A DNA stretch of 64,000 bases, taken from contig BAYV01000109.1 in NCBI GenBank assembly GCA_000710935.1, forward strand, positions 1 to 64,000, given 5' to 3'. The notes beneath the pieces were generated by a model. That model was given only the letters and a program-made list of their open reading frames with translations, did not search any database and was not told the origin of the DNA. Numbering within the stretch: the stretch's first letter is position 1; each line of letters opens with the position of its first letter. Below are positions 120 to 52,602 of the stretch, piece by piece. This stretch comes from Iodidimonas nitroreducens (GTDB lineage Bacteria > Pseudomonadota > Alphaproteobacteria > Sphingomonadales > Rhodothalassiaceae). Both the position numbers and the translations under genes were made by a program.

Positions 120-3100
120 TCAGAAGGTGACATTCACCTGAGCATAGCCAAAGCGCCCCGGGACATCGAACAAGGTGGCGTCAAAGCCATTGAGCGCGCA
201 GGAGAAGCATTCCGGCGGATCGGTTTGCAGGATATTGTTGATCCCCACGCTGAAGGCGATGCGGTCTTCAAAAATGGCGGGCTGCCATGTGGCCTGAAGA
301 TCGCCATAGATCTTGGAGCCGAGCTTATTGGTGCCATCTGCGGGATCGGAACACAGGGTGCTCAGATCATTGATGCCGCCTGCCGAAACCCCGAACAGAT
401 TGGCCGGGCAGCTTTCCGTCAAACCATCAATATAACGGGCGATGAAATTGACCGAAACCGTTTTATAGGCCCAATTGAGATTGGCCTGAACCCGGAATTC
501 CGGCCAGCCTTTTTCCGGATCGCCCTGTTCGGTGCCAACCCGCTCGACCTTTGTGAAGCCATCGGCTGATGGGAAGCTTTCTTCAAAGCTGTTCACCCAT
601 GTAGTGAGGACACCGGCACTGAACCGACCAAAATCGGTCATGGGCGATTGATAATCGATGGAAAAATCCACCCCATCGGTTTCAATGCCGCCGATATTCT
701 GGAGCTGGATATTAAAGCCATTGATGGCCCCGCCCGGGGTGCGGCTGATACCGCTGCACAAGACCGGATCAAGGGTTTGCACGCAGCCTTGCAGTTTAAC
801 ATCCTGATCGATGGCCTGAATGGCATTTTCCAGATCGATATTCCAATAGGTGGCTTCAAAGGTCAGGCTTTCCACGCCTTTGATATCGGCCGCCCATTTG
901 GGGCTGTAAACGCTAGAAATCGAGAAGCTATCTGATGTTTCCGGCTGCAATTCCCGATTGCCCCCCACGGTGGTGGAAATCTGGGAATTAAGCTGGGTGA
1001 AGCTGCCATCAGCAGGTACCCCAAGGGCGACGCAATTTGCCTGAATTTGGGCCGATGCCGGATTGCCGCCCCCCAGACCGAGGAAATTGGAGCAGGGATC
1101 TTGCAAAGTGGCATCAAATCGGGCTTCAGAGCCGAAAAGCTCCCCAATGCCGGGGGCCCGCAAGCCTTCCGCATAGCTGCCGCGCAAGAGGAAATCCTCG
1201 GTTATCCGCCAGTTCACCCCGGCTTTGATCGTGGTATTGCCGCCAAAGGTGGAAAAATCGGAATAGCGGGCCGCAAAAGAAGCTTCGAGATATTCCGCAA
1301 AGGGTACCCCGGCCAGAAGCGGCAAAACGATTTCGCCATAAACTTCATCGACATTAAAGCTGCCTTGGGTGGGGGTTGAGGGCACACCGGCGCTTTCACC
1401 TGCCACCACCACGGCATCGGGCTGGAAGAATCCTTCGCGTTTTCTGTGCTCATAACCACCGGCAAAAGCGATCCAGCCCGCAGGTAAGCGGATCAGATCG
1501 CCGGAAATATTAGCGGTGACATCAAATAATTCCGATTCGCTTTCATCCTTTTGCACAAAGGTCACGAAATCGAGCATTTCAGGCGTGATGGAACCGGATC
1601 CATCCGCGCCCTGGCCACCAAAAAAATTGAACGGCACGCAGCCATTGATGCTGGAACCATCGGGATTAAGGCATTGATCGATCGGGCCCAGAGCCTGTTT
1701 CAATTTGGCGGAATTGAACGCCCCGAATTTACGCTGGCTGCCCCGGCTTTCGGAAAAGGTGGTATTTATATCCCAAAAAAAGCTGCGATCTTCAAAGGTG
1801 AAATCGCCGCGCAAGCCCCCATTCAGATACCAGGTATCAACATTTTGCTCGAATATGCGCGCTCCGGCTTCCAGCGGTCTGCGTCCGGCGAAAACAAAGC
1901 CGTTTTCCGCATTGAGGGTGATGCCAAAAGGATTGAAGGGATTGGTCGCATCCACGGAAATCGTATCCATCAGATTGCCATTGCCGGCATCAGGGCCGAT
2001 GAACAAAGGCTCTGGCGCCGCCTGATTGGTGGATTCGCGATTGTTGAACACCGCCTTCATTTCGAAAACCACATTATCGGTCAGATCATGTTCGATATTG
2101 GAAAAGACACTCACCCGCTTATTAGGCGTGGACACCAGATTGAATTGGGCGAAATTAAAGCGGTCGCTGGTATCGAAAGCATTGAAATCCAGCGATGCCG
2201 GATTGGCCGGATCAAAAGCCGCCAGATTGCCCAGTTGATTGATGGCCCCATCATTAAGGGTAATATCGGCGGTAATGGGATTGCCCTGCCCATCAAAAGC
2301 CCCGGTGCCGAAAATGAATCGACCCTGCGGCGTGCCCGAAGAACAAAAAGGCGTGCAGGCCCCAACGCCGGGGGTTGGGAAGGCCGAGATTTTACGATCA
2401 GAAGCCCTGATCGCGCTGGCTTCATTATAGGTCACATCCACAAAGATCCGGGTGCGCTCGCCCTGAGAACCAAATGACAGCGAATATTCCTGAGTTTCGC
2501 CATCCCCTTCATTGAGAAACATGCCGCCATAGGCCGAGGCCTTGAACCCTTCGAAATCTTTTTTGGTGATGATGTTAATCACCCCGGCAATGGCATCCGA
2601 GCCATAAATCGCCGAAGCCCCATCCTGCAGAACCTCGATCCGTTCGATGGCATTGGTGGGCACGGTCCCCAGATCCACCGCCGATGAAACGCCGGACCCC
2701 GATGTTTCATTCACCCAGCGCTTACCATCCACCAGCACCAGCACCCGCTTGGGGCCCAATCCGCGCAGATCGGCCTGAACCGAGCCTGCGCCAATGCCGC
2801 CGCCATCGGGTGGAAAGCCGAAATTGCCCGAATTATTGAACTTGCTGTTAAAGGTGCCTTGGGATTGCGGCAATCTTTGCAGGAAATCCCCAACATTGGT
2901 CAAACCGCTGCGATCAATATCTTCCGAACTGAGATTGACGATCGGGGAGGGCGAATTGAGAGGATTGCGCCGAATGCGCGACCCGGTCACCACCACTTCC
3001 TCGATGGTCGAGGCCTTTTCATCCGTTTGTGTCTGATCTTGCTGGGCAAGCACAGGCATTGTCAGCAGCAGGGCAAAGCCCCCGCTGCTCCCCATCAAAA

Positions 3101-3125
3101 GCGTGTGAAGCATTTTATTTTTCAT
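120..3125 (-). CDS. TonB-dependent outer-membrane receptor
   Basis: A protein of 1001 residues, usual for the large TonB-dependent receptors that import siderophores, vitamins, sugars or peptides across the outer membrane. It begins with a signal peptide (KNK basic start, long hydrophobic core, cleavage near VLAQQ). A TonB-box-like/linker segment [12 protein letters not shown] follows, then a plug domain with the [17 protein letters not shown] stretch, then a long beta-barrel. The chain ends VNVTF with the terminal aromatic residue typical of outer-membrane barrels. The ATG at 3125 was chosen over an upstream ATG at 3218 because a strong GGGAGG lies 7 bases before it and the signal peptide starts there. 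It diverges from a porin gene. The ligand is not readable; the peptidases nearby make peptides a guess only. Confidence 0.93.
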
Positions 3126-3245
3126 AATAACCTCCCAAATTTTTTTGAAACGATCCCGATGACCGCATACCAAGCCTAAACAATTTAAAATCAACTGGTG
3201 AGAGAAATATTTTGTCACAATAACCTAAACTGGCGCGTCTTGTGT

Positions 3246-3261
3246 CTTGATATATATCAAG
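3246..3261. promoter_or_regulatory. FNR/FixK-type operator box
   Basis: A perfect palindrome TTGAT-ATAT-ATCAA (3247-3260), extended by C and G at the ends, matches the consensus of FNR/Anr/FixK-family regulators exactly. It sits in the 198-base divergent space, 63 bases before the porin ATG and about 120 bases before the receptor ATG. The distance would suit a class II activator site (centre near -41.5) for the porin if transcription starts near 3295. The -10 there is weak, as expected for an activated promoter. That it responds to oxygen limitation is inference. Confidence 0.6.
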
Positions 3262-3323
3262 GCTCTATCCGGCTTTCATGTTAGGTGCAGTCTGTACGAT
3301 CTTTATTTCAAGGCCGGAGAACC

Positions 3324-4574
3324 ATGATGCCTGTACATCCCCTTATTCACCGTCTTGTTATCCTGACGCTGCTGAGCATGTGCGCATCACCGGGCCTTGC
3401 GCAGACTGTCGAGAGCAATTCGCTGAAGACATTTATCGCGAAAAGCGATCTCATCTTCGATTCTCGTTTGCGGTTTGAACTGGTTGATCAGGATGGCTTT
3501 GATGAAGATGCGCAAGCCCTGACGCTGCGGAGCCGGTTCGGATTTGAAACGGCCTCTTTTCACGGCTTCAAAGCGCTGGTCGAGGGCGATTTCACCCGCG
3601 ATCTGGGGGTGAATGATTTTAATTCCACGGTGAATGGCAAGACCGGTTTTCCGGTCGTTGTCGATCCGGATTCAGAACGGCTCAACCGCCTGCAGCTTGG
3701 CTATCATCGGAAATGGGATGGGGCTTCTTTGGCTGCAACGGTGGGGCGACAAAGGATCAAGCTGGATGATGATCGGTTTATTGGTAATGTTGGGTTCCGG
3801 CAAAATGAACAAACTTTTGACGCTGCCCGCTTGCAGATCAGCCCTTTTGATGGGCTGACTGTTGATTATAGCTATATTTGGCAGGTCAATCGCATTTTTG
3901 GCAGTAATTCCGCGAACAAAACCGCAGATGCCGATTCCCATCTGATCAATGCCCGCTATGAAACGCCATGGGCCGTGATCACCAGCTATGCCTATCTTCT
4001 TGATCTGGAAGACCAGCTAGCATCCAGCGCCAGCAAAACCTTTGGCCTGCGCATGGCTGGGACACGCAATTTGTTTGATGATTGGCAGATTGCTTATGGC
4101 GCTGAATTTGCAAATCAGACCGACTTCGGGGGTAATCCCGAAAATTTCGATCTGAATTATATCATGGGGAAAGCCGGATTTACGCGAGGGGGGCTGAGCT
4201 TTGATGCCCAGATCGAGCGTTTAGAGGGTAATGGCCGGCGAGGCTTCACCACGCCCCTTGCAACATTGCATGCCTTCCAAGGGTTTGCGGATGTTTTCCT
4301 TGTGACCCCCGCAGCGGGACTGCGGGATATTCAAACAAAAATCCAATATCGCTGGCGCAATGTCTCAAAGCTTGGAGATGTTCGTTTAAGTGCCTGGTTT
4401 CATGACTTTTCGGCGACCCAAACCCAAGACGATCTGGGTGAAGAAATTGATTTTGGCCTCTTTATCACGCCCCGAAAGGGGATCACCTTCAGCATAAAAT
4501 ATGCCGATTTTTTTGGTGCCGACGATAAACCCAGCCTCCGTCGTTTTTGGACCGGTGTGGACGTGAAATTTTAA
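3324..4574 (+). CDS. Putative outer-membrane porin, alginate-export-like beta-barrel
   Basis: A protein of 416 residues with a clear signal peptide (MMPVH start, hydrophobic core, cut near GLAQT). The rest is alternating amphipathic strands with many aromatic and acidic residues and no globular motif. The C-terminus WTGVDVKF ends in phenylalanine like outer-membrane barrels. The pattern (DSRLRFELVDQDGF, LRSRFGFET, FEGDF-like strands, VGRQRI, FAVDYSYIWQV-like strands) resembles the alginate-export/porin family, but the substrate cannot be told. I start at 3324, where GGAG precedes by 5 bases, rather than at 3285, because the signal peptide begins there. The FNR-type box upstream suggests oxygen-dependent expression. 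Confidence 0.72.
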   Translation: MMPVHPLIHRLVILTLLSMCASPGLAQTVESNSLKTFIAKSDLIFDSRLRFELVDQDGFDEDAQALTLRSRFGFETASFHGFKALVEGDFTRDLGVNDFNSTVNGKTGFPVVVDPDSERLNRLQLGYHRKWDGASLAATVGRQRIKLDDDRFIGNVGFRQNEQTFDAARLQISPFDGLTVDYSYIWQVNRIFGSNSANKTADADSHLINARYETPWAVITSYAYLLDLEDQLASSASKTFGLRMAGTRNLFDDWQIAYGAEFANQTDFGGNPENFDLNYIMGKAGFTRGGLSFDAQIERLEGNGRRGFTTPLATLHAFQGFADVFLVTPAAGLRDIQTKIQYRWRNVSKLGDVRLSAWFHDFSATQTQDDLGEEIDFGLFITPRKGITFSIKYADFFGADDKPSLRRFWTGVDVKF

Positions 4575-7600: not shown

Positions 7601-8003
7601 GGCGCTTTTTACAACGCCTGTGGGGGCCATTTTCGGACCGAAAGTAATGCTGATCGATCAATTCGCGGGATCGGGCGGCGATTTCCTGCCTTTTGCCTTT
7701 AAATACCAAACCGGCGGCACCCTGATCGGCACCCGCACATGGGGCGGGCTGATCGGCATCGGGGTGGCGCCCGATCTGATCGATGGGGGCCAGATCACCA
7801 CACCCTATTTCCGCTTCATTCACCCCGAAGGGGGCTGGGCCATCGAAAATGAAGGGGTGAGCCCCGATATCACTGTGGAGTTGACCCCCAAAGCGGTGAT
7901 CGAAGGCCGCGATCCTCAGCTTGACAAGGCCATCGCGGTGATCTTGCAGCAATTAGGCGAAAATCCGCCGCCCAAACTGCCCAGCGCCCCGGAAGGACCC
8001 TGA
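4674..8003 (+). CDS. Exported tricorn-like protease, S41 family
   Basis: About 1109 residues, the size of tricorn core proteases, which cut peptides released by larger proteases. After a signal sequence come two stretches of WD/TolB-like propeller repeats (roughly residues 30-640, with many SPDG and SRDG turns). These are followed by a tricorn C1 helical domain, a PDZ domain (around 810-900) and an S41 catalytic domain. The catalytic serine is in GSGGD (Ser about 1000), the histidine in ELGVGHA (about 778), and the DERGNAGGQ and NEGVSPDI segments match the family. An AAGGGGG-type ribosome site at 4665-4671 favours the ATG at 4674 or 4677 over 4662. A low-complexity linker rich in K, A and P near residues 560-600 separates the propeller units. 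It probably acts in the periplasm. Confidence 0.9.
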   Translation: MMFFGNLASKGTITLILIFFAQTFMIQTVSGQTQLLRHPDLSATHLVFAYAGDLYVADPMGANPRRLTVGAAEESHPHISPDGTMVAFTGHYEGNTDVYVMPITGGQPVRLSYHPGDDWVRGWSADGSAVLFSSDRGLSYQRGGQLFEIALTDGIEPNGLPRALPMPIAWDGAYAPDGGQIAYQPFPSGYSGSAGWKGYRGGTTPPIWIFDTKSHEISAIPNDGVNDSHPIWLDDSIVFVSDRDGVANLWSYDLADQTLRQHTYHKDWDIKSAAGYGRRIVYELGGRLHLYDLETKSTNALAIELTVDLPAARPKWIEGKDYIAEARLSPDGQTALLSVRGEIISLSVNHDEMIQITRSSGAHDRAPLWSPDGRKLAYLSDQSGEYALYVGAVSGLGTTTYYDLAGAPATYRLHAFTPDGSAILYEDNHLNLYEISLKDGTSVRIGGHARRWYPHGFALAVSPDSRYVAFRRANETYLNSLMIHDRQSRETFPLTNGPGSLDAPVFSRDGKYLYFTASTNSGPAGAWLDMSNQDRMVRRGIYAAVLSASDPTPVLPEIDQPPAAPIPPEKSRKKAKDKAAASDPEAPPQTRLDREGLEKRIVALPMVLRDYNRLMIGKDGALYALALRPDAAEENPPGREDEAVNSLYRFDFKTHKESLFLADVGEAAISANGDHLLVSRPKKSWAVVETGAPTAPMQGIKDLALDKIRLQIDPRAEWRQIFNEVWRLERDYFYDRAMHGLDWEAVRQKYAPMLDHLGRREDLTHILIEMISELGVGHARASGGDIVKADGQKVGLLGADFRVANGYYQISRIYDGESFNPFLGAPLAVPGLGVKAGHYLLAINGQPVTASDNPYRFLEGTVGRQTLLHLNDKPEMKGAYSIIVQPIPNERGLRRWAWIEDNRRHVAALTNDRVGYVYLPNTAADGFSYFNRYFFSQLDKQALIIDERGNAGGQAANYIVDLLNRSHLASWKDRDGALFTTPVGAIFGPKVMLIDQFAGSGGDFLPFAFKYQTGGTLIGTRTWGGLIGIGVAPDLIDGGQITTPYFRFIHPEGGWAIENEGVSPDITVELTPKAVIEGRDPQLDKAIAVILQQLGENPPPKLPSAPEGP

Positions 8004-8016
8004 GCAGGTTCTTTGG

Positions 8017-8811
8017 TTATTCCGGGAAATCCTCGAAATCCTGATCGAACAGATCCGCTTCTTCTTCGGTTTGGCCCGATTGACCATTACTGATTTCAAA
8101 CAAGCGGCGCTGGCGAAAAGCAGAGCGGGCAAAGGCATAGGGATCATCCGCCTTCATCACTTCCTTGATCACATCCCAATTGCGATCCCGGGCTTCGAGA
8201 ACGCCGGCCGCCGTCCAGCCCCGTCGGGCCCAGCGTTCATCGGCAATATCAAGGCCAAGGCCCACCGGCTCGGACACGGAATCCCCCACAAAGCCAAGGG
8301 TATCACGCGGATTGGTGGGGCCGATGATCGGTAAAACCAGATAAGGACCGCCGCCAATGCCCCACACCGCCAGCGTTTGCCCGAAATCTTCATCCACATT
8401 TCTGATCCCAAAGGCTGTGGCCGGATCGGCAATGCCCCCAATGCCCAGCACGGTATTCGCCAAAAAGCGTTTGGTGGCGATGCCAGCGCGGGTGCCTTCG
8501 CCCTGCAAAAGGGAATTGACGATCACCAAAGGCATTTTGGCATTGGCATAGATATTGGAAATGGCTTCACGAAAGATTTTGGGAACGATGGTGCGATAAA
8601 CCCATGTGACGGGCTGCAGGATCACCGTATCCAGCCCATTATTCACTTTCCACATGGCCCGATTGAAGGGTTCCAACGGATCATTGGCCTGTTCATAGGC
8701 GGCCACAGCATCCAGATCATTGGCCGGGGGGCGAGTGGCACAGCCAGCAATGGCCAGAATAAGCAGAGCAGCCGCTAGGCCGCGCATGAAAAAGTTCTGA
8801 GGCAAAATCAT
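8017..8811 (-). CDS. mlaA: MlaA/VacJ family outer-membrane lipoprotein
   Basis: A 264-residue lipoprotein with a lipobox LAIAGC (Cys24) and the MlaA signature segments NDPLEPFNRAMWKVN, FLANTVLGIGG and YLVLPIIGPTNPRDT. MlaA removes misplaced phospholipids from the outer leaflet of the outer membrane and passes them to the Mla ABC system in the inner membrane. The rest of the mla genes are not in this window. It is transcribed convergently with the tricorn-like gene, with only 13 bases between stops. The tail is acidic (EEEADLFDQDFEDFPE), which is common in alphaproteobacterial homologues. Confidence 0.93.
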   Translation of the reverse strand: MILPQNFFMRGLAAALLILAIAGCATRPPANDLDAVAAYEQANDPLEPFNRAMWKVNNGLDTVILQPVTWVYRTIVPKIFREAISNIYANAKMPLVIVNSLLQGEGTRAGIATKRFLANTVLGIGGIADPATAFGIRNVDEDFGQTLAVWGIGGGPYLVLPIIGPTNPRDTLGFVGDSVSEPVGLGLDIADERWARRGWTAAGVLEARDRNWDVIKEVMKADDPYAFARSAFRQRRLFEISNGQSGQTEEEADLFDQDFEDFPE

Positions 8812-11013: not shown

Positions 11014-12086
11014 GTCTGTCGATCCAAAATCGCCTGAACAACAGCGCCCAAAAGATCCGTGCCTTGGCAAAAGAGCGCATTTTGCTGCTCGATGGGGCCA
11101 CCGGCACGATGATCCAATCCCACAAGCTGAAGGAAGCCGATTATCGCGGCAGCCAATTTGCCGATTGGACGCGGGATCTGAAGGGCGACAATGATCTTTT
11201 ATGCCTGACCCGGCCCGCCCTGATGCAATCCATCCATGAAGATTTTCTGGCGGCCGGATCGGATATCATCACCACCAACAGCTTTAACGGCACCAGCATC
11301 AGCCAATCCGATTATGGCATGGAAGCACAGGTGGAGGCGATCAATCTGGCCGCTGCCCGCATCGCCCGCAAAGCCGCCGATGAATGGACCGCGAAAACAC
11401 CGGATAAGCCGCGCTTTGTAGCCGGTTCCATCGGCCCCACCAATAAAACCCTTTCGGTATCGCCCCGGGTGAACGAACCGGGCTATCGCGATGTCACCTT
11501 CGATCAGATGAAAGATGTGTATAAACAGCAGGCTTCAGCCCTTCTGGAAGGCGGGGTCGATCTTTTGCTGATCGAAACCATATTCGATACCCTGAATGCC
11601 AAAGCCGCCCTTGTGGCCGTGGATGAATTATCCCAAAGCCATGATGTGCACATTCCGATCATTCTGGCGGTCACCATCACCGATCTTTCGGGGCGCAATC
11701 TATCGGGGCAAACCGTTGAAGCCTTCTGGTATTCGGTGCGCCATGCCCGGCCTTTGGCGGCAGGCATGAACTGTTCTTTTGGGGCCGATCAATTACGCCC
11801 CCATGTGCTGGCCTTATCCAAAATCGTGGAAACGCTGATCTGCGTTTATCCCAATGCCGGGCTGCCCAATGATATGGGCGATTATGATGAAAGCCCGGCC
11901 CACACCGCCGGGTCGCTGGAAGGCTTTGCCCGCGATGGCCTGGTGAATATCGTGGGCGGCTGCTGCGGCACAACGCCGGATCATATCCGGGCCATTGCCA
12001 AAGCCATCGCCGATCAAAAGCCGCGCATCCCGCCATCGCCAGCGCCAAAATTGCGGCTGGCGGGGCTGGAACCGATGGTCGCCTGA
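11010..12086 (+). CDS. metH: Methionine synthase, homocysteine-binding module (split MetH, N part)
   Basis: A 358-residue protein equal to only the first domain of cobalamin-dependent MetH. It contains LLLDGATGTMIQ at the start and the zinc-binding cysteines in GMNCSFGA and GGCCGTTPDHI, which activate homocysteine. The remaining MetH domains are encoded by the next gene (12180-14843), so the enzyme is made from two chains. Split MetH is known in several alphaproteobacteria, and the clean ends with a complete domain on each side argue against a simple frameshift. It overlaps metF by four bases. Confidence 0.95.
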   Translation: MSLSIQNRLNNSAQKIRALAKERILLLDGATGTMIQSHKLKEADYRGSQFADWTRDLKGDNDLLCLTRPALMQSIHEDFLAAGSDIITTNSFNGTSISQSDYGMEAQVEAINLAAARIARKAADEWTAKTPDKPRFVAGSIGPTNKTLSVSPRVNEPGYRDVTFDQMKDVYKQQASALLEGGVDLLLIETIFDTLNAKAALVAVDELSQSHDVHIPIILAVTITDLSGRNLSGQTVEAFWYSVRHARPLAAGMNCSFGADQLRPHVLALSKIVETLICVYPNAGLPNDMGDYDESPAHTAGSLEGFARDGLVNIVGGCCGTTPDHIRAIAKAIADQKPRIPPSPAPKLRLAGLEPMVA

Positions 12087-12179
12087 TCGCCCCATGCATC
12101 GGGGCCGCCGCCCTTTCTTCATCTTGCGGGCTATGGATGCGTAGCCCGGTTCGTTCCTCACGCAATCAGATCGCACAGC
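12087..12179 (+). promoter_or_regulatory. Linker between split metH genes with a perfect hairpin
   Basis: This 93-base gap separates the two metH halves. It contains CGGGCTA (12127-12133) and TAGCCCG (12142-12148), a perfect 7-bp stem with an 8-base loop, and a second GC-rich palindromic stretch right after the first stop (CCCC near 12092, GGGG near 12102). No T-run follows, so neither is a normal terminator. They may stabilise the mRNA or tune translation of the second half, whose ATG has no good ribosome binding site. Confidence 0.35.
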
Positions 12180-14843
12180 ATGACCCAGAAAACCGCGCAA
12201 TTCATCAATATCGGCGAACGCACCAATGTCACGGGATCGGCCCGGTTCAACAAGCTGATCCTGAATGGCGATTATGATACAGCGCTGGAGGTGGCCCGCT
12301 CACAGGTGGAAAACGGGGCCCAGATCATCGATATCAATATGGATGAGGGGATGCTCGACAGCCAGCAGGCGATGACCATCTTCCTCAATCTGATCGCCAC
12401 CGAGCCGGATATCGCCCGGGTGCCGATCATGATTGATAGCTCGAAATGGGCGATCATCGAAGCCGGTTTGAAATGCGTTCCCGGCAAGGCCATCGTCAAT
12501 TCCATCTCGCTCAAGGAAGGCGAGGCGCCCTTTCTGGAGCAATCCCGCACCATCCGCCGTTTTGGCGCGGCCACCGTGGTGATGGCTTTTGACGAGGATG
12601 GCCAGGCCGATAGCATCGAACGCAAGGTGGCAATCTGCGAACGATCCTATAAATTACTGACCGAAGATGGCTTCCCCCCCGAAGACATCATCTTCGATCC
12701 CAATATCTTTGCCGTTGCCACCGGTATCGAAGAGCATAATCCCTATGCCCGCTATTTCATCGAAGCCACGAAAATCATCAAACAGCGCTGCCCCCATGCC
12801 CGCATATCGGGCGGCGTTTCCAATGTGTCTTTCTCATTTCGCGGCAATGATCGGGTGCGCGAGGCGATGCATTCGGTGTTTTTATATCATGCCATTGCCG
12901 CCGGGATGGATATGGGGATCGTCAATGCCGGTCAGCTCGCCGTTTATGATCAGATCGAGCCGGAATTGCGCGAATGTGTCGAGGATGTGATCCTTGATCG
13001 CCGCCCCGATGCCACCGATCGCCTGCTGGAGATGGCCGAACGCTATAAAGGCGGCGGCCTGCGCCGGGAAGAAGATCTTTCATGGCGGGATGTGGCGGTG
13101 GAAAAGCGCCTTGAATATGCCCTTGTGAAGGGGATCGACAAATTCGTGGTGGAAGATACCGAAGAAGCCCGGCAAAAAGCATCCCGCCCCATCGATGTGA
13201 TCGAAGGGCCCTTGATGGATGGCATGAATGTGGTGGGCGATCTGTTTGGTTCGGGGAAGATGTTCCTGCCCCAGGTGGTGAAATCGGCGCGGGTGATGAA
13301 AAAGGCCGTGGCGCATCTGCTCCCCTATATCGAGGCCGAAAAAGCCGAAGGCGCGGGCGGACCGAAAGGCCGGATCGTAATGGCCACGGTGAAGGGCGAT
13401 GTGCATGATATCGGCAAGAATATCGTGGCGGTGGTTTTGCAATGCAATAATTTCGAGGTCATCGATCTGGGGGTGATGGTGCCATGGCAAACCATCCTCG
13501 AGACTGCCCGCGAGCAGAAAGTCGATATGATCGGGCTTTCGGGCCTGATCACCCCATCCCTTGATGAAATGGTCACGGTTGCCGAGGAAATGCAGCGCCA
13601 GCACTTCAAGCTGCCGCTTTTGATCGGCGGGGCCACCACATCGAAAATGCACACGGCGGTGAAAATCGCCCCGGCCTATGATGGGCCGGTGGTGCATGTG
13701 CTTGATGCCTCGCGATCAGTGGGGGTGGCGGGCACCTTGGTATCGGATCAGCACAAGCAGCGCTTTGTGGATGAAACCAAAAGCAGCTATGACAGCATGC
13801 GCGAAAAGCGCCTGGCCCGGCCACAGGTGGATCGCCTGATCAGCCTTGCTCAGGCCCGCGACAATGCCCCCGCCCTTGATTGGTCGAACGGCCCATCGGC
13901 ACCCAAACCCCGGCGGCCGGAGCGCATCGTGCTGGATAACTATCCCCTTGGCGATCTGGTGGAACGCATTGATTGGACGCCCTTTTTCCGGACATGGGAA
14001 CTGGCTGGCACCTATCCCGCCCTTTTGAAAGATGCGATCATCGGGGAAACCGCCCGCAATCTGTTTGACGATGCCAAAAAAATGCTGGCGCGCATCATCG
14101 ATGAACACTGGGTGGAAGCGCGGGGCGTATGCGCCTTCTGGCCCGCCAATGCCGATGGCGATGATGTGATTTTATGGCACGATGAAAGCCGCACAAAAGA
14201 ACGCGCCCGGGTGCATTTCCTGCGCCAGCAGCAGCAAAAGCGGGGGGAGCGCAGCAATGATTGTCTGGCCGATTTCATCGCCCCCGTATCCACCGGCCTG
14301 TGTGATTATATCGGCGGTTTCGCGGTCACGGCGGGGGGACGGATCGAAGAAAAGCTGGCCGAATTCAAGGCCGCCCATGATGATTATGCCTCGATCATGC
14401 TGAAGTCATTGGCGGATCGGCTGGCCGAAGCCTTTGCCGAGCGGCTGCATGAAAAGGTTCGCACCGAATTCTGGGGCTATGCACCCGATGAAGCCCTGAG
14501 CAATGAACAGATCATCAAGGAAGGCTATCGCGGCATTCGCCCGGCACCGGGCTATCCGGCCTGCCCCGATCATTCTGAAAAACCGGCGCTGTTTGCCCTT
14601 CTCGATGCGGAAAAGGCCACCGGCATTCATCTCACCGAAAGCTTTGCGATGCTGCCTGCCTCCAGCGTTTCGGGCTATTATCTGGCGCATCCCGAAAGCC
14701 ATTATTTCGGGATTGGCAAAATCGGCCCGGATCAGGTGGAGGATTATGCCAATAGGCGCGGGGTGGAAATCGCCCGGATCGAAAAATGGCTGTCGCCCAA
14801 TCTTGGCTATGAGCCTGCCGCACGGTTCAAAAAAACCGGCTGA
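12180..14843 (+). CDS. metH: Methionine synthase, folate/cobalamin/activation modules (split MetH, C part)
   Basis: An 887-residue chain starting directly at the pterin-binding domain ([14 protein letters not shown]). The cobalamin cap follows, then the B12 domain with the cobalt-ligating histidine motif DVHDIGKN and the [11 protein letters not shown] and GGATTSKMH segments. Last is the SAM-dependent reactivation domain ([37 protein letters not shown]). It transfers the methyl group from methyl-THF to cobalamin and, with the N part, to homocysteine. Nothing essential appears missing apart from the homocysteine module, which is the separate gene upstream. The start is the ATG at 12180; Shine-Dalgarno pairing is poor, so expression may depend on coupling or the upstream hairpin. 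Confidence 0.96.
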
Positions 14844-15353: not shown

Positions 15354-18047
15354 ATGCGCCTTTTCCCCAGCCCTGCCATTTCGGCTCAGCGCCTTTTCAT
15401 CCTGTTGAGCCTGATCATCATGGGGGTGCAAGCCGGCCCCGCTCTTTTCCTCGCAAGCCCTGCCAAGGCCGAACCCATGGCCTATTTCGCCCCCGAAGGG
15501 GTTCGCTATGACCCGGCGATCCCCACGCCAGAGGCCTTTTTAGGCTATGAACTGGGCACACAGCCGGTGCGCCATGATCAGATGGTCGCCTATCTGCGCC
15601 GGGTGGCAGACTTATCTGATCGCATCAGCATTGAAACCATCGGCCACAGCCATGAAGGGCGGCCCATCGAATTTCTGGTGATCACTTCGCCCTCCAATCA
15701 TCAGCGCCTTCTCGCCCTTCGCTCTGCCCATGTGGCGCTGAGCACCAGCCCCGATAGTGCCACAGTCAGCGCCGAAATGCCGGTAGTGACATGGCTGAAT
15801 TATGGGGTGCATGGGGCCGAAGCCTCGGGCATGGATGCCGCCATTCCGGTGGTGTATCATCTGGCCGCCGCGCAGGATGAGGAAACAGTGCAAAGCCTTG
15901 AAGGCAGCATCATCCTGATCACCGCCATCTTCAATCCCGATGGCCATGCCCGGCGCATTGATCATGTTTATAAATATGGCTCGGTGGTGCCGGTCACCGA
16001 TCCTGCCCATGCTGCTCATGATTTATGGGTGGATGCGCGCACCAATCATTACTGGTTTGATCTCAATCGCCAATGGTTGTTGCAAACCCAGCCCGAATCA
16101 AAGGCATGGCTCGCCAAATGGCATGAGTGGAAGCCCAATGTCACGGTCGATTATCACGAGATGGGTTCCAATTCGACCTATTATTTTCACCCCGGCGAAC
16201 CGCAGCGCAAAAACCCCCTGATCCCGGATCGATCCCGCGATCTTCTGAAACAAATGGCCGGCTATCATGCCAAAAGCCTCGATCAGGATGGCACCCTTTA
16301 TTTTACCGAAGAAGGCTTTGATAATTACTATATCGGCAAAGGCTCCACCTATCCCCATATCAATGGATCGATCGGCATTTTGTTTGAGGCCGGGGCCGCC
16401 CGTGGCGGCGCGATCGATACCCCCAATGGCCTGCGCACCCATGGCGAAAATATCCGCAAGCATTTCCGTACATCGCTCTCATCGATCCGGGGCGCATTGG
16501 GGCTAAAGCCCGATCTGCTGGCCTATCAGGCGCAATTTCATCAAGATGCCATGGCGAAATCCAAGGATGATCCCATCAAGGGCTGGGTTTACAGCTCCCC
16601 CGATCAGGCCCGAATGCGGCTGTTCACCGATCTTTTGGCGCGCCATCAGATCAAAAGCCATGAACTGGCCCGCACCATCACCATCGATACGATTGCTTAT
16701 CGCGCCGGTGAAGCGGTGATCGTGCCCATGGCGCAAACCCAATATCATATGATCAAGGGCATTTTCGAGCGAGTGCGCAGCTTTGAAGAAGCCGTTTTCT
16801 ATGATGTTTCGGGCTGGACCCTGCCTTTGGCCTATGATCTTGATCATGCTTCCCTTGATCGGAAAAATTGGCGCGATGATCTGATCGGCGCCCCCGCCAT
16901 GGCGAAGGCCGAAAGCGCCCCGGTGCCGGATCGCGCCCCTTATGGCTATGCTTTTGAATGGACCGATCATTATGCCCCCAAGGCGCTTTATCGCCTGCTC
17001 GATGCCGGGCTTCGGGTGCGGGGCGCTGTTGAACCCTTCAGCGCCATCACCACCAAGGGCATCGTCGATTTCCCGCGCGGCAGCCTGTTTGTGCCGCTGG
17101 CGGGGCAGGATCACGGGGCGGATGCTATCCATCGCCTCGTGGCATCGGTGGCGGCGGATGAGGGCATCGCGGTTCATGCCATAAGCTCGGGCCTCACCCC
17201 CACGGTGGGGGCGGATCTGGGGGGCCGCAATTCCTTTGAAAGCCTTGAAAAGCCCAAGGTGCTTTTGCTTTTCGATGCGGGCATCAGCAAATACGAAGCC
17301 GGTGAAGCCTGGTTCCTGCTTGATCATGAAATGCATATCCCGGTCACCTTGCGGGCGAAGGATGATCTGCGCGGCCTTGATTGGTCGGTCTATAGCCATA
17401 TCATCCTGCCCGGCGGCAATGCCGCTTTGGATGAACGCAGCACCCAGCGTTTGGGCCAATGGATCAGCGAAGAGGGCGGCACCCTGATCGCCCTGCGCCA
17501 GGGCGCCCTGTGGGCCCAGAAAAGCTTTTTGACCGCCGCCGACAGATCAACCGAGAATCAATCGAAAGAGGGTAAAGCGGGGGGTGCCAAGGCGGAAGAG
17601 GCTGGCCCCAAACGCCTCGATTATGCCGATTTCCCGGTGGCCGAGGCGAAAGATGTGATTGGCGGGGCCATTTTTGGCAGCGATCTCGATATCACCCATC
17701 CCATGGCCTTTGGCTATTCTGATCGGCTGATCTCCAGCCATCGCAATATCACCCGCACCCTTGCGGTGCCCGCCAATCCCTATGCCCAGATTGCCCGCTA
17801 TCTGGAAGCACAGCCGCTGCTCTCAGGCTATGCCTCAGACCGCCGGATCAAGGACATCGCAGGCACCCCGATGATGCTGGCTGAACGGAAGGGCGCGGGC
17901 AGCATCATCGCCATTGCCGATGCCGTCAATTTCCGGGGAATTTTTCTGGGCACCAGCAAATTGTTTTTGAACGGCCTGTTCTGGTCGAAAGCCTTCCAAT
18001 CACCGCGCAACCCCGATGAGATGGCCGAGAACAGCGATAGCCACTGA
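15354..18047 (+). CDS. Exported M14-family zinc carboxypeptidase
   Basis: An 897-residue protein with an N-terminal signal sequence (hydrophobic residues about 12-38, cut near AKAEP). The M14 domain follows at about residues 60-370. Zinc ligands are visible as NYGVHGAE (HxxE) and the later histidine of DYHEMGSN. FNPDGHARR and the glutamate of GILFEAG fit the substrate-binding and catalytic positions. The remaining 500 residues include a glutamine-amidotransferase-like fold (VYSHIILPGGNAALDE) often found in large M14 proteins of this group. It probably trims peptides in the periplasm, matching the tricorn-like and M1 enzymes in this window. A charged linker rich in K, E and A near residues 730-750 separates two parts. 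Confidence 0.88.
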   Translation: MRLFPSPAISAQRLFILLSLIIMGVQAGPALFLASPAKAEPMAYFAPEGVRYDPAIPTPEAFLGYELGTQPVRHDQMVAYLRRVADLSDRISIETIGHSHEGRPIEFLVITSPSNHQRLLALRSAHVALSTSPDSATVSAEMPVVTWLNYGVHGAEASGMDAAIPVVYHLAAAQDEETVQSLEGSIILITAIFNPDGHARRIDHVYKYGSVVPVTDPAHAAHDLWVDARTNHYWFDLNRQWLLQTQPESKAWLAKWHEWKPNVTVDYHEMGSNSTYYFHPGEPQRKNPLIPDRSRDLLKQMAGYHAKSLDQDGTLYFTEEGFDNYYIGKGSTYPHINGSIGILFEAGAARGGAIDTPNGLRTHGENIRKHFRTSLSSIRGALGLKPDLLAYQAQFHQDAMAKSKDDPIKGWVYSSPDQARMRLFTDLLARHQIKSHELARTITIDTIAYRAGEAVIVPMAQTQYHMIKGIFERVRSFEEAVFYDVSGWTLPLAYDLDHASLDRKNWRDDLIGAPAMAKAESAPVPDRAPYGYAFEWTDHYAPKALYRLLDAGLRVRGAVEPFSAITTKGIVDFPRGSLFVPLAGQDHGADAIHRLVASVAADEGIAVHAISSGLTPTVGADLGGRNSFESLEKPKVLLLFDAGISKYEAGEAWFLLDHEMHIPVTLRAKDDLRGLDWSVYSHIILPGGNAALDERSTQRLGQWISEEGGTLIALRQGALWAQKSFLTAADRSTENQSKEGKAGGAKAEEAGPKRLDYADFPVAEAKDVIGGAIFGSDLDITHPMAFGYSDRLISSHRNITRTLAVPANPYAQIARYLEAQPLLSGYASDRRIKDIAGTPMMLAERKGAGSIIAIADAVNFRGIFLGTSKLFLNGLFWSKAFQSPRNPDEMAENSDSH

Positions 18048-18095
18048 AAGCGCCAAAGCTGAAGGCAGCGGCTTTGGTCGTGGTTCAGGCTGAAT

Positions 18096-18130
18096 GATCA
18101 GACGGTGCGAGCGAGCTTGTCGCGCCGCCA
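18096..18130. repeat. Left copy of 35-bp direct repeat flanking the island
   Basis: Bases 18096-18130 match 21601-21635 at 32 of 35 positions in the same orientation. The right copy is the last 11 codons of the ferritin-like gene plus a few bases beyond its stop; the left copy ends in the same WRRDKLART coding pattern and stop. The two copies bracket the three-gene accessory island exactly, with 3505 bases between equivalent positions. Duplication of a gene's 3' end at both sides is the classic footprint of element integration, but no integrase is present. Left/right att is inference. Confidence 0.6.
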
Positions 18131-18187
18131 CAGCCGCGCTTTGCAACGCAAAAACGCCTTGGCCCATCTGATTGGCCAAAAACCCAT
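18098..18187 (-). pseudogene. Remnant carrying the 3' end of a ferritin-like-gene copy
   Basis: In the minus-strand frame that ends at 18098 the last residues read WRRDKLARTV, nearly identical to the C-terminus WRRDKLARTA of the ferritin-like protein at 21603. Upstream of this the frame is open from an ATG at 18187 (29 codons), but the sequence no longer resembles that protein. It looks like a leftover gene end, either of a lost paralogue or created by integration of the island. Confidence 0.4.
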
Positions 18188-18413
18188 GATGATGGTCGGT
18201 GAAGCCGAGGGTTGTCTTGACGGTCATACTCGCCCAAGAGTATGTATAAGTCATATAAACGAAGGCTTATAGAATCTTAGGCTTGTCAGGGAAGGCAGAA
18301 AGTCATTTTCCGCCACTTAAGACGATTTTTTGAAAGTGCTGCAAAGGCGGTCTTTTCTGCCCCACAGATTGTTCTCCCTGTTAGAGAATGGCAAGGCCTC
18401 AGAGTTGTATAGA

Positions 18414-18953
18414 TTATTCGGCGATGAGAAGGCTGGCCAACTGATCAATATCCTTGTGCGTGACTATAAAGAAGGGGACATCTATTATGTCAGCGATGGC
18501 TTGGGCGTGAGCACGAGAAATCACTTGGTGCTGTTTAAGAACATTCGATGGATAAGTCGGACGAGACCGTGATGTATCCGCTCCACGATTGGCAGCAATA
18601 CGTTCCGGCTCGGATTCCAGATGTACCATGAATGAAACTCCAAGCGCCCTGAAAATCTCGCTCGAAATTTTCGTCAGCCCTTTTCCATCGTCAATGACAA
18701 CGTGTCCATCAATCACAACCAAGTTCGAGTTTGGATCGCGTGTAAGAATGAAACCTTCGATCAAAAGGCGCTGGTTATCATCAAGGTCAGAATAGCGAAT
18801 GGCATCTCTGCCTTCTGATGGAACCTGCCGAGCTGCGGCAATAAGGCTGCCGCCAGTAAGGTGCTGGAAATCAACTAGCTTTGCTAGCCGGCACAAGAAG
18901 GTAGTCTTTCCCACGCCAGAAATACCTGTGAACGCAACGATCCGCTGGTTCAT
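18414..18953 (-). CDS. Small P-loop NTPase / nucleotide-kinase-like protein (island gene 3)
   Basis: A 179-residue single-domain P-loop protein. Walker A is GISGVGKTT (residues 10-18), a Walker B-like strand NLVVIDGH lies at about 77-84, and an arginine-rich lid-like segment ERIAANRGADTSRSRP lies at about 117-132. This resembles adenylate-kinase-like ATPases (AAA_18/AAA_33 type), which phosphorylate nucleotides, RNA ends or small molecules. Its ATG overlaps the stop of the PIN-GNAT gene by four bases, so it is the third gene of a tightly coupled operon. Base composition is clearly lower in GC than the flanks. The substrate is unknown; membership in the island rather than core metabolism is inferred from context. 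Confidence 0.75.
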   Translation of the reverse strand: MNQRIVAFTGISGVGKTTFLCRLAKLVDFQHLTGGSLIAAARQVPSEGRDAIRYSDLDDNQRLLIEGFILTRDPNSNLVVIDGHVVIDDGKGLTKISSEIFRALGVSFMVHLESEPERIAANRGADTSRSRPTYPSNVLKQHQVISRAHAQAIADIIDVPFFIVTHKDIDQLASLLIAE

Positions 18954-20488
18954 ACTTCGAACTTTAGATTTGCACGCTTTACCAGACTTGCCGTCAGCGT
19001 TTGGTTTAGTCTGTAGATAGACTGCTGAGGGTGGCCATTGATGACACCCATGCTTCGCAACTCTTGAAGCGACACCGCCGGCTCGATATATGAAATCAGC
19101 AGGAAGTTGATAACCTTGACGGGATCATCGGGCGTTGCCTTCCACTTCTTCAGCTGCTCCTCACTATAGACGGACCGACCGCCTGTCAGTTGCATGAGCT
19201 TTTTGGTCGATCCGGCCGGCGTCACACTTTCCAGAATGCCAAGAGCGGTAATGGCCTGCGATGGGGGATTCCGCGAAGTACTTTTGTAAAAAAATAGAAG
19301 TGATCCTGCAGGCCCAAGCTTCGATTTGGAACGACAGAGATACACCTTTCGGATCGTGTTGCCAGGCCTTGTAATCGTCTCGGCGCGGGACGCACCAGCA
19401 AAAAGGTCCGGCTGAAGTGGGCTATAAAGGTCCGGGAAGAGCGTATCGTGATATGCCTCCCTGATCGGAATGACGAAGCCGGGTGTATTGTCGTGAAATA
19501 CAAAGCGTGGATAGTGCTCCCGTGCCAGATCGAAGTCGCTTTTGTCATCTTGTGGTGTAAGAACCGCGGCGGAGAAATCTCGCTCATAGATGTATTCGCC
19601 GTTGGCGTTCTGACCCGAATTCCGAAACCCATAATATTCCAGCAACTGCATCAAAGCGACATGTTCTTCATATGTCGTCAGATACGCTAGATCGTATTTG
19701 TTGGTTTGAGCATACCAAAGAACCTGTTTCAGAAGCAACTCTCCGAGCTTCACCCCCCGGCTTTCCGACGCTACCTTGAAGGTGCAGATTTTGAGAATTT
19801 TATTGGCTTTCGTGACCGCATCAGTATCCAATGCATCTTCGTCTTTGCGAACGATCAGTCCCACCAACTGGTCGTTATCATAAACCACCCAGCATGATCG
19901 GTGCTGCTTCACGCACTTTTCTCGCCACCAGTTATCGAATTCCGGATAGCCCTTTCGAAGGCTGTCAAAAAATGTGTCCGATCTGTCGATCTCATGTGCT
20001 GCTGCCTCGCCAACGTGGCGGATCGGCACTTGCTTCGGCTCATAGGTCTGAACGAGCAATTCCTCGGCGTCGCTGACAAACAGGACGCGCCGCGCAAGGT
20101 CAGGCGAACGTTTCTGGGCGCGCTGATGAAGCCCTTTGTCCTGTGTGACAAGAAAGTCTGCAGCGCCTTTCTCAAGCGAATCAAGAAGGGTCGCATCTAC
20201 AACATCGTTCGGCTTCTTTAGCTGTCCGAAGGCCTCTTCGAGATCGAGCCGTTTCAAGCCGCGCTGCTTCTTCAGAAGCTGATACTTTTGGATCTTGCTG
20301 AGGGAAATTTCACGGCGCCTCGCATCCGTATCATGGGCGATGTCGTCCATCGCAGCCTCATGAACGTAAACGCCTACCTTATGGGTCGCCGCTAGTGCGA
20401 GCAATCGAGCATAAGCTGCTTCAACTGTGTGATTGTCTTCGAGCTCAATCAGGATATTCGTATCAATGAGATACGCTTGATGGCTCAT
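18950..20488 (-). CDS. PIN nuclease - GNAT acetyltransferase - PUA-like fusion (island gene 2)
   Basis: A 512-residue multidomain protein. Residues 1-150 form a PIN ribonuclease domain with the four expected acidic residues: D9 (LIDTNIL), E44, D98 (VVDATLLD) and D117 (TQDKGL). Residues about 195-310 form a GNAT domain, with the acetyl-CoA loop RGVKLGELLL (244-253) and the YYGFR segment (285-289). Residues about 375-512 read like a PUA-superfamily (ASCH/EVE-like) RNA-binding domain (RKVYLCRSKSKLGPAGSLLFFY, ALGILESV). The start at 20488 has AGAAGGG upstream. It overlaps the XRE-ASCH gene by 26 bases and the P-loop gene by 4. The domain mix suggests an RNA-targeting toxin or RNA-modification enzyme. 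The PIN and GNAT calls are firm, the third domain less so. Confidence 0.8.
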   Translation of the reverse strand: MSHQAYLIDTNILIELEDNHTVEAAYARLLALAATHKVGVYVHEAAMDDIAHDTDARRREISLSKIQKYQLLKKQRGLKRLDLEEAFGQLKKPNDVVDATLLDSLEKGAADFLVTQDKGLHQRAQKRSPDLARRVLFVSDAEELLVQTYEPKQVPIRHVGEAAAHEIDRSDTFFDSLRKGYPEFDNWWREKCVKQHRSCWVVYDNDQLVGLIVRKDEDALDTDAVTKANKILKICTFKVASESRGVKLGELLLKQVLWYAQTNKYDLAYLTTYEEHVALMQLLEYYGFRNSGQNANGEYIYERDFSAAVLTPQDDKSDFDLAREHYPRFVFHDNTPGFVIPIREAYHDTLFPDLYSPLQPDLFAGASRAETITRPGNTIRKVYLCRSKSKLGPAGSLLFFYKSTSRNPPSQAITALGILESVTPAGSTKKLMQLTGGRSVYSEEQLKKWKATPDDPVKVINFLLISYIEPAVSLQELRSMGVINGHPQQSIYRLNQTLTASLVKRANLKFEV

Positions 20489-21257
20489 CTTGAAGTGCCC
20501 TTCTCAGATCATGCTTGGCGTAAAGAAAAGACTGTGGCGGCTCAAAGCCAAATTTCTCTCGAAGCTCGTGAAGCGGTAGCGGACGGGTGAATGATTTCAC
20601 ATCATCAAATACAAGCGCGTAGCCATAATCCAATCCTTCAAAATACTTGTCGAATAACGGCCGCTCGATAAAGGCCTTACTTTCAAATTTATTCCAGATT
20701 TGCTCGACTGGAAGCTTTAAGACATCACGGATCGAAGCGGTGCCGACCATCGCCTTAACTGGCGAGCTTGAATAAATATAGGCTAAGGCACCATGCGGAG
20801 CTGCAACAGGAAAACGGCGGCGCAATTCTACCGTCTTCTCACCTGTGAGGATTTTCTCGGAATAGACCGGCTTGATAGACAACACCACGTCGCGTTGGGG
20901 TTTGAATGGCTCGTCTGCAAGAATTGGAAGTATGAGTTGGTCATCGTGCCCTTGCTCGATGTCGAAAGTAACACTCTGCAGCCGAGCTGCAATCGGGGTA
21001 TCGACTGGAAAATGCGCGTTCAGACGCAGCGAAGCACCAAGGGCTTTGACATAACGTTCCACGGTGCTGAGATATATTTCACCGCCGTTCTCAATCTTGG
21101 AGATCGAGGCTTGCTGAACGTCCATGCTCGCAGCAACATGCCCTTGCGTGAGGCCAGCCAGAATGCGCAGCTTCTTCAATTCGGCACCGATCCGCGCTGT
21201 GCCTAGCCCATCCTCTATGGCCTGAGCTTCGATAATTTTTCCGGTAAGCTTGCCCAT
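20463..21257 (-). CDS. XRE-family HTH fused to ASCH domain (island gene 1)
   Basis: A 264-residue protein. Residues about 23-80 are an XRE/Cro helix-turn-helix (ELKKLRILAGLTQGHVAASM, then QQASISKIENG). Residues about 124-230 are an ASCH domain with the signature GEKTVELRRRFP and the strand LAYIYSSSPVKAMVG. ASCH is a PUA-like fold thought to bind RNA; one ASCH protein, YqfB, hydrolyses N4-acetylcytidine. I prefer the ATG at 21257, with AAGG 8 bases before it, over those at 21272 and 21305. It is the promoter-proximal gene of the island and probably its regulator or antitoxin. The last 26 bases overlap the PIN-GNAT gene. Confidence 0.8.
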   Translation of the reverse strand: MGKLTGKIIEAQAIEDGLGTARIGAELKKLRILAGLTQGHVAASMDVQQASISKIENGGEIYLSTVERYVKALGASLRLNAHFPVDTPIAARLQSVTFDIEQGHDDQLILPILADEPFKPQRDVVLSIKPVYSEKILTGEKTVELRRRFPVAAPHGALAYIYSSSPVKAMVGTASIRDVLKLPVEQIWNKFESKAFIERPLFDKYFEGLDYGYALVFDDVKSFTRPLPLHELREKFGFEPPQSFLYAKHDLRRALQDEPSSVSH

Positions 21258-21600
21258 TGGATGAACCTTCATTTCTTGTTTTTGTAAGCCGGACTGGTAT
21301 TCCAAGCAAGAAATATCGCGGGGTTACACATCTCGTACAGGCTCAAGGTTCAGCAATCTTATTTCTTCCATCGGGGACAAAATAGATGGAAAGATTGGAA
21401 GGATCAAAAAGTGGAAAATTAAAACTCATGCATTTGCTAGCTCTACGTGCAACTTATTATAATGAACCACAGCAAGGTTCCAACCCCCCTCGGTGAATTC
21501 GGGCGGGGTGGTCTGCTGTCCGTAGTCGTTTGCGAGATAAGCTTTAGGAGCTTTTGCCAATTCTGCCCACGCCCACCCCCGGGCAGTGACTCCGCAGGGT
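21258..21600. other. Promoter side and right border of the accessory island
   Basis: About 340 bases between the island's first gene and the ferritin-like gene. The left half is AT-rich and should hold the island promoter. The right half (21480-21600) is GC-rich, with several C- and G-runs that could pair. No open frame or transposase fragment is recognisable. The right repeat copy begins at 21601. Confidence 0.45.
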
Positions 21601-21635
21601 GATCAGGCGGTGCGGGCGAGCTTATCGCGCCGCCA
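21601..21635. repeat. Right copy of 35-bp direct repeat flanking the island
   Basis: Matches 18096-18130 at 32 of 35 positions. It covers the last codons and stop of the ferritin-like gene (minus strand), so an element that integrated here would leave the gene intact. The three mismatches are consistent with age or with the left copy coming from a related, diverged gene end. Confidence 0.6.
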
Positions 21636-22430
21636 TTTCACGAAATGCCAGCCCGCCCCGGCCACCAGATCGGCCAGGCGGCCATTGGCATTGAAATCCG
21701 CCGCCCGCAAGATCATCCGTGCCGCATTATCGATATGCTGGCGCTGATAAAGGGCCATGGCACTGCGCCAATAGGCCGTGGCATTGGCCTTGGTATCATA
21801 AACCGCCTGGGGATCACGGGGCAGGATATTGGCGGCATACCACGCATAGGCCAGTTCATCATCTTCGGCTTCCTGCACCCGGCCCAATGCCACTTTCAGG
21901 CGCTCCATCAAGCCCAGCTTGTCCCCGGATTTATAGCGCCCCAGATGCTTTTGAAATAAACGATAGTGAAAAAATTCATCGATGGCGATGCGCCGACACA
22001 CTTCTTTCAAAACCGGCTCGCTGGTGGCATCGCGGATCGCCGAATAAAAGGACGATGTGCCCGATTCCACCACACAGCGGGCGATCAATTCCCCCGCCCG
22101 GCTGCCGCGCACCGATGCGCTGGCATCAAGGGGCAGGCCATAGCCTTCGCGAAAAAGGGCAAGGCTTTGTGCAAAGGAAAAAGCGGGATCGGCGATTTCC
22201 GCCCATCGCCCCAAAGCCGCCCCATGCTGGGCTTCTTCCTCGCCCCACTGCCGAGCGGCGGCTTGAAAATCTGCATCATCGGGGAAAACACGGCATAAAT
22301 AGGTGACATAATCGGCCGAATTGGCTTCGACCAAGGATGCTGCCTTGACCACCGCCAGCAAATCATCCGATACGGCATCGGGATCAAAGCCCGACCAATC
22401 GATGCTATCCAATGTCCAATGCTGTGCCAT
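21603..22430 (-). CDS. Ferritin-like di-iron protein
   Basis: A 275-residue helical protein of the ferritin-like superfamily. Di-iron ligands are visible as two helix pairs: E (SLVEANSADY) with EEEAQHG, then CVVESGTSSFY with IDEFFHYR, i.e. the pattern E...EExxH...E...DExxH. This arrangement is shared by acyl-ACP desaturase-like and related oxidases. The specific reaction cannot be told. It lies alone, between the accessory island and the ATP synthase operon and in the same direction as both. Its last 11 codons are the sequence repeated on the far side of the island. Confidence 0.75.
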   Translation of the reverse strand: MAQHWTLDSIDWSGFDPDAVSDDLLAVVKAASLVEANSADYVTYLCRVFPDDADFQAAARQWGEEEAQHGAALGRWAEIADPAFSFAQSLALFREGYGLPLDASASVRGSRAGELIARCVVESGTSSFYSAIRDATSEPVLKEVCRRIAIDEFFHYRLFQKHLGRYKSGDKLGLMERLKVALGRVQEAEDDELAYAWYAANILPRDPQAVYDTKANATAYWRSAMALYQRQHIDNAARMILRAADFNANGRLADLVAGAGWHFVKWRRDKLARTA

Positions 22431-51581: not shown

Positions 51582-52541
51582 ATGCCCATAAAAGACGCCC
51601 GATTGGCAACGGTTTTTGGCGGTTCCGGCTTCATCGGCCGCGCTGTGGTGCAAAGGCTGGCGCGGGCAGGCTATCGGATCCGGGTGGCCGTGCGCCATCC
51701 CGATAACGCCTATTTTCTAAAGCCTTTGGGCGAAATGGGCCAAATCCATGCCGTGCCCGCCGATCTGACGAATGCGCCTTCCATCAAAGCCGCATTGGCG
51801 GGCAGCGATATCGCAATCAATCTGGTGGGAATCCTCAGCCAATCGGGCCGGCAACGCTTTGATCTGGTGCAGGCAAAGGGCGCGGGCCTGATCGCCCGCA
51901 CTGCCGCCGAACTGGGGATCAGCGATCTGGTGCATCTTTCGGCCATTGGTGCGGATGCCGCCTCTCCTTCCCTTTATGCTATCAGCAAAGCGCAAGGCGA
52001 GCAGGCAGTGAGAGACGCCTTCCCCAAGGCCCATATCCTGCGCCCCAGCCTTGTTTTCGGGCCGGACGATGCTTTCACCAACCGCTTTGCCGCCCTTGCC
52101 AAAAAGCTGCCCTTCATGCCGGTGATCGCCGGTGAGACCCGCTTTCAGCCGGTTTATGTGGGGGATGTGGCGGATGCGGTTCTCGCCGCCTTGCGCCAGC
52201 CCGCGCCGGAAAAGGCGACCCTCCATGAATTGGGCGGACCAAAGATCTACAGCTTTCGGGCTTTGCTGGGAATGATCCTTCATTATTCGGGGCAAAAGCG
52301 CCCTTTGCTGGATATTCCCATGCCATTGGCCCGGCTGCAGGCAAGTTTTTTGCAATATCTGCCTTCGCCGCCCCTGACGCCGGATCAATTGCTGATGCTG
52401 CAGCAGGATAATATCGTGCATGAAAACACCCCCGGCCTGCGCGATCTGGGGATCAGCCCCACGGCCGCCGAAGCCATCCTGCCCGGCTATCTTGATCTTT
52501 ATGCCCCCCAAGGCCGTTTCACACGGCCCCGAAATCAATAA
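51582..52541 (+). CDS. NDUFA9-like NAD(P)H-binding protein
   Basis: A 319-residue atypical short-chain dehydrogenase of the complex I NDUFA9 subfamily. The nucleotide loop VFGGSGFIGRAVVQRLA is near the start, with VHLSAIGAD, YAISKAQGE and ILRPSLVFGPDD further on. In mitochondria the homologue is a complex I accessory subunit; in alphaproteobacteria it is usually unlinked to nuo genes, as here. The last codons (GRFTRP) are made by the first unit of a small tandem repeat that continues past the stop. Confidence 0.88.
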   Translation: MPIKDARLATVFGGSGFIGRAVVQRLARAGYRIRVAVRHPDNAYFLKPLGEMGQIHAVPADLTNAPSIKAALAGSDIAINLVGILSQSGRQRFDLVQAKGAGLIARTAAELGISDLVHLSAIGADAASPSLYAISKAQGEQAVRDAFPKAHILRPSLVFGPDDAFTNRFAALAKKLPFMPVIAGETRFQPVYVGDVADAVLAALRQPAPEKATLHELGGPKIYSFRALLGMILHYSGQKRPLLDIPMPLARLQASFLQYLPSPPLTPDQLLMLQQDNIVHENTPGLRDLGISPTAAEAILPGYLDLYAPQGRFTRPRNQ

Positions 52542-52602
52542 AGCCCGTTTCACACGGCCCAAGCACCCATAAGGCCGTTTCACAGGGCTCAGAATGACAC
52601 CC
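52512..52602. repeat. Three 30-31-base hairpin-bearing tandem repeats
   Basis: Units start at 52512, 52543 and 52573 and share GGCCGTTTCACACGGCC with minor changes; the first is a perfect hairpin (GGCCGT/ACGGCC). The first unit lies inside the NDUFA9-like coding end, the others after the stop. They may serve as an mRNA 3' end structure. Too few and too short to be a CRISPR. Confidence 0.7.

Follow-up and report, generated by a model that had tools for sequence, protein, structure and literature searches.

A predicted toxin-antitoxin cassette inserted behind a ferritin-like gene of Iodidimonas nitroreducens and bracketed by a duplication of that gene's 3′ end

In the 64,000-nucleotide stretch of Iodidimonas nitroreducens DNA analysed here (contig BAYV01000109.1, positions 1 to 64,000; referred to below as the window), a predicted toxin-antitoxin operon lies behind a ferritin-like gene and is bracketed by two copies of that gene's end. 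Comparison with one empty site confirms an insertion at the gene's 3′ end that spared the gene itself. We lean, with modest confidence, toward an integrase-free insertion behind the ferritin-like gene, with a long target duplication of variable length and a left joint made by microhomology. A piece of DNA whose original source was presumably a mobile element, carrying a predicted toxin-antitoxin/defence operon together with a truncated parD gene, would have entered at the ferritin-like 3′ end without an integrase of its own, probably in a single event. That event would have left two copies of the final 36 bp of the gene, one completing the gene and the other orphaned on the side of the neighbouring peptidase gene, and the left joint would have formed where parD and the gene end share a microhomology of about 8 bp.

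The direct repeat and the empty site

The target locus comprises the following features.

15354 to 18047, plus strand: M14 peptidase gene (Pfam Peptidase_M14; 68% to L017 5399-7984)
18048 to 18094, no strand: native spacer with hairpin, from the M14 gene to the original ferritin-like 3′ end (fold z = -2.0)
18095 to 18130, minus strand: left copy of the ferritin-like 3′ end, an orphan fragment on the native side (33/36 to 21600-21635)
21600 to 21635, minus strand: right copy, made up of the final 10 codons and stop of the intact ferritin-like gene plus the next 3 bp
21603 to 22430, minus strand: ferritin-like target gene, intact (73-79% identical orthologues in two congeneric genomes)

The sequence-only reading had described 35-bp repeats, matching at 32 of 35 positions, on either side of an island. 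This is borne out for 18096-18130 and 21601-21635, which share 32/35 identical bases, and the repeat can be widened by one base to 33/36 (18095-18130 versus 21600-21635), with similarity dropping abruptly past both edges. All three mismatches between the copies are transitions. The next best match to the 35-mer within the window reaches only 22/35, and among 600 random pairs of 500-bp flanks, taken 3.5 kb apart from the same window, the best 36-mer identity had a mean of 21.9 (sd 1.1) and a maximum of 24. When the whole genome was searched, no third copy was found, just the two sites. The repeat had also been said to hold the last codons and stop of the adjacent gene, as the right copy does.

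The ferritin-like protein is conserved and gives a weak Rubrerythrin match, and its gene adjoins atpC both here and in most relatives having the gene. An empty site of the kind that had been proposed as a check, with a single repeat copy, was found in the congeneric genome G002 (locus L017), the sole syntenic relative available and the one on which the comparison is based. In G002 the M14 gene (stop at 7985-7987) and the ferritin-like gene (stop at 8068-8070, plus strand) run toward each other and end 80 bp apart; the gap holds a hairpin and no island, and the gene end is present in one copy rather than both. In the window the M14 gene is likewise the convergent neighbour, and next to the left copy come the native hairpin and the M14 gene. 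Because this order is that of the empty site, the left copy occupies the position of the original gene end; it reproduces the empty-site layout and is not the end of a different conserved gene.

The same comparison bears on the idea that there was no insertion at all and that the left copy terminates an independent, ancient duplicate of the ferritin-like gene, which we consider extremely improbable. It has nothing in its favour beyond the repeat itself, and it is opposed by the abrupt stop of similarity after 36 bp, by the upstream sequence, which is parD and not ferritin-like, and by an empty site without a second copy. A remnant of a second ferritin-like gene beyond the 36 bp was also considered and rejected, as the protein similarity is no higher than that of shuffles.

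The inserted DNA and its borders

Between the two copies, the following features were delineated.

18131 to 21599, no strand: inserted DNA, 3,469 bp, absent from the G002 empty site
18123 to 18227, minus strand: truncated parD antitoxin gene of which the first 35 codons remain (its first 26 aa match intact parD genes at 65-69% in tblastn)
18123 to 18130, minus strand: putative 8-bp microhomology TGGCGGCG at the joint of parD and the ferritin-like 3′ end
18414 to 18953, minus strand: AAA_17 ATPase/kinase-like gene, 179 aa (Pfam AAA_17 2.3e-18)
18950 to 20488, minus strand: PIN-GNAT protein, 512 aa, predicted toxin/effector (Pfam PIN_3 and Acetyltransf_1; PADLOC PDC-M11A 1.1e-119)
20463 to 21305, minus strand: XRE-type HTH plus ASCH protein, 280 aa, predicted antitoxin/regulator (Pfam HTH_31 and ASCH; PADLOC PDC-M11B 1.7e-31)
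21306 to 21599, no strand: right border of the insert, with no clear homologue

The insert has a G+C content of 50.1%, against 56.1% for the window, and encodes the PIN-GNAT and ASCH proteins in one operon. Operons that pair PIN-GNAT-EVE proteins with ASCH and AAA_17 proteins are predicted toxin-antitoxin systems, and the fusion of ASCH to an XRE-type HTH occurs mostly in alphaproteobacteria (Bell et al., 2020, PMC7641849). The island has the same genes and the same alphaproteobacterial HTH-ASCH fusion as these PIN-GNAT-EVE/HTH-ASCH/AAA_17 operons (Bell et al., 2020, PMC7641849; PADLOC PDC-M11), and there is no essential difference between them, save that the EVE domain is not called by Pfam here. 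Pfam found no EVE match in the PIN-GNAT protein, the PDC-M11A profile spans its residues 6-497, and one homologue is annotated 'EVE domain-containing protein'. The cargo is of an already known kind, a predicted toxin-antitoxin or candidate phage-defence cassette (PADLOC candidate PDC-M11); a literature search for PDC-M11 returned nothing. Most of 78 genome loci, in alphaproteobacteria and beyond, carry this gene set. The GNAT and ASCH parts of the cargo are furthermore homologous, at 30% and 35% identity, to the GevT/GevA toxin-antitoxin pair of Escherichia phage PhiR47_2 (both names are those given in the phage record), which, unlike the island cargo, is without a PIN, HTH or AAA part and has the reverse gene order.

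At the left joint a parD gene is broken. The minus-strand frame that enters the left repeat starts MTVKTTLGFTDHHHGFLANQMGQGVFALQSAAVAA (18227 down to 18123) and matches intact parD genes on plasmids of Antarctobacter, Paracoccus and Sulfitobacter; in Antarctobacter and Sulfitobacter a gene annotated as a RelE/ParE-family toxin comes directly after parD. The alignment also takes in a stretch of DNA ahead of the parD start codon. Neither Pfam nor NCBIfam made a call on the 35-aa parD fragment. Past codon 35 the parD frame continues into the ferritin-like gene end, and the last eight coding bases of the conserved, parD-like V-A-A residues, TGGCGGCG, are the first eight of the repeat. At least eight shared bases would be expected at a random joint with p of about 1e-4; the 8-bp overlap itself is inferred. 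A joint within a gene at such an overlap would mark illegitimate recombination, either during insertion or in a later deletion, and the joint of parD with the ferritin-like gene end looks more like illegitimate recombination than like the work of a site-specific integrase.

The right border yielded less. A 60-nt segment (21471-21530) is 78% identical to what directly follows a presumably DUF736-like gene in another locus (L087), where that gene precedes the cassette. A DUF736-like tail as the right border was rejected, a single 60-nt match at 78% being too weak and suggestive only. Searches of plasmids and 298 genomes for right-border homologues returned only noise, and the open frame at 21430-21602 (P0001) matches no family. 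No integrase remnant was seen at either border, and the earlier statement that the island has no integrase gene holds; the four tyrosine-recombinase genes of the genome all lie elsewhere.

Related cassettes and the route of insertion

Restriction-modification genes are reported to undergo insertion with long target duplication (Nobusato et al., 2000, as cited by PMC1643837 and PMC3874152); targets and lengths differ between their insertions, and the duplications measure roughly 100 bp (PMC3874152; PMC1643837). The island resembles these cases in having addiction/defence genes, no mobility gene and a direct repeat of the target that is long and perhaps variable, and differs from them in its cargo, which is a PIN-GNAT/HTH-ASCH/AAA_17 operon and not a restriction-modification system, in a duplication of 36 bp at a gene 3′ end, and in the broken parD gene at one border. 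Integrase-free insertion could have followed this route or, alternatively, homology-facilitated illegitimate recombination (HFIR), with homology in the gene at one end and microhomology at the other. In competent bacteria, HFIR has been documented with segments of 3-10 bp (PMC6382021). Of the origins that the sequence-only reading had offered for the island, arrival by recombination fits best.

One special case of our preferred explanation is that the cassette brought the ferritin-like 3′ end along from a related donor, in which it already sat behind the donor's own copy of the gene. After DNA uptake, the native end would then have been replaced through homologous recombination within the gene, together with a joint at microhomology in parD. 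We regard such a donor as unlikely and the replacement as equally so. A single uptake event would give the observed structure and would explain the differences at 3/36 positions between the copies, and a ComEC-type competence gene is present in the genome; ComEC is widespread, and its presence does not show competence. No such donor was found, and the proposal shifts the original insertion into the donor. Furthermore, similarity ends 3 bp past the stop, so donor and recipient would have had no downstream sequence in common.

The main rival sees in the island what is left of an integrative element whose attB was the ferritin-like 3′ end, which is possible but in our view rather unlikely; the same caution applies to its second step, in which parE and the integrase would have been lost through a later microhomology deletion that began in parD and reached the left att copy. 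Insertion at a gene 3′ end with restoration of the gene is classical for tyrosine-recombinase elements, and the island shares their geometry in its gene-end direct repeat, complete target gene and single-copy empty site. The left copy abuts the truncated parD gene, as a deletion would leave it, related cassettes occur in islands with tRNA-type att repeats or adjoining an integrase, and the genome has four tyrosine-recombinase genes elsewhere. Unlike such elements, the island is without an integrase, its border cuts a gene, and the target is not reused: among the 13 relatives with the ferritin-like gene, none (0/13) has a second nearby copy of its own gene end, and none has a tyrosine integrase beside the gene. 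The deletion would, moreover, need to stop exactly at the repeat edge, and no trace of the lost integrase is seen at the borders. The proposal of the sequence-only reading that the repeats are att sites therefore stands in part. Insertion at the 3′ end, with the gene intact and one copy in G002, is upheld; a site-specific att core is not, given the 8-bp overlap of the truncated parD gene with the repeat, the missing integrase, the lack of recurrence in 13 relatives, and a Reyranella locus with the same geometry at a different target gene and with a different duplication length.

That locus, in Reyranella massiliensis (L101), holds a related cassette between 120-bp repeats (118/120; 8669-8788 and 12090-12209), which take in the last codons and stop of a Crp-type gene and continue for about 60 bp beyond it. 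Its PIN-GNAT protein is 59% identical to that of the window, the cassette has the same orientation as here, the PIN-GNAT frame is interrupted near 11098-11296, and the repeat sits beside an assembly gap. No tyrosine integrase was found at the cassette. Among 40 genomes no syntenic empty site was found for this insertion, only paralogues. A broken passenger gene at the Reyranella border was rejected, Pfam giving no match. With another target gene and another duplication length, the Reyranella case would agree with the variable targets and lengths reported for restriction-modification genes.

In a search covering 1.2 kb around each cassette, direct repeats scoring at least 18 flanked 4/75 cassette loci versus 1/191 control intervals, the Reyranella repeat being the strongest. 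A weaker case is L092, where the cassette has an MmeI-type gene on one side and an N6_N4 methylase gene on the other and a 56-bp repeat at 80% (8657-8711 and 11555-11610) involves the 3′ region of the MmeI-type gene. The duplication lengths are thus 36 bp in the window, 120 bp in Reyranella and 56 bp in the weak L092 case, with an empty site for the window only. The flank repeats of L079 and L127, two of the four loci, were rejected as gene-end duplications, as they look like dispersed intergenic repeats. Other cassettes lie in islands flanked by 48-62-bp repeats resembling tRNA 3′ ends (L105, L109 and L119) or have an integrase 1 kb away (L057), which makes att-type integration of the cassette's ancestors plausible. 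In Roseomonas relatives (82% PIN-GNAT) the cassette lies between two chromosomal genes without flanking repeats.

A more general proposition is that PIN-GNAT/HTH-ASCH operons insert, as some restriction-modification genes do, behind unrelated genes, free of recombinases and with long 3′-end duplications, the window, Reyranella and perhaps L092 being independent cases in the same orientation; at present we hold this to be doubtful. If duplication-type insertion holds beyond restriction-modification genes, it would suggest a general recombinase-free way for small addiction/defence cassettes to enter chromosomes behind intact genes. As a single case, the window offers a well-documented insertion with a joint readable to the base.

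Two further observations were made. The archaeal prophage psiM100 (L169) encodes a distant PIN-GNAT homologue in a segment, 1045-3837, annotated 'inserted fragment IFa', which begins inside a set of 125-bp repeats. Elsewhere in the window, at 52510-52601, a unit of about 31 bp with a short hairpin (AAGGCCGTTTCACACGGCCC) is present in three tandem copies.
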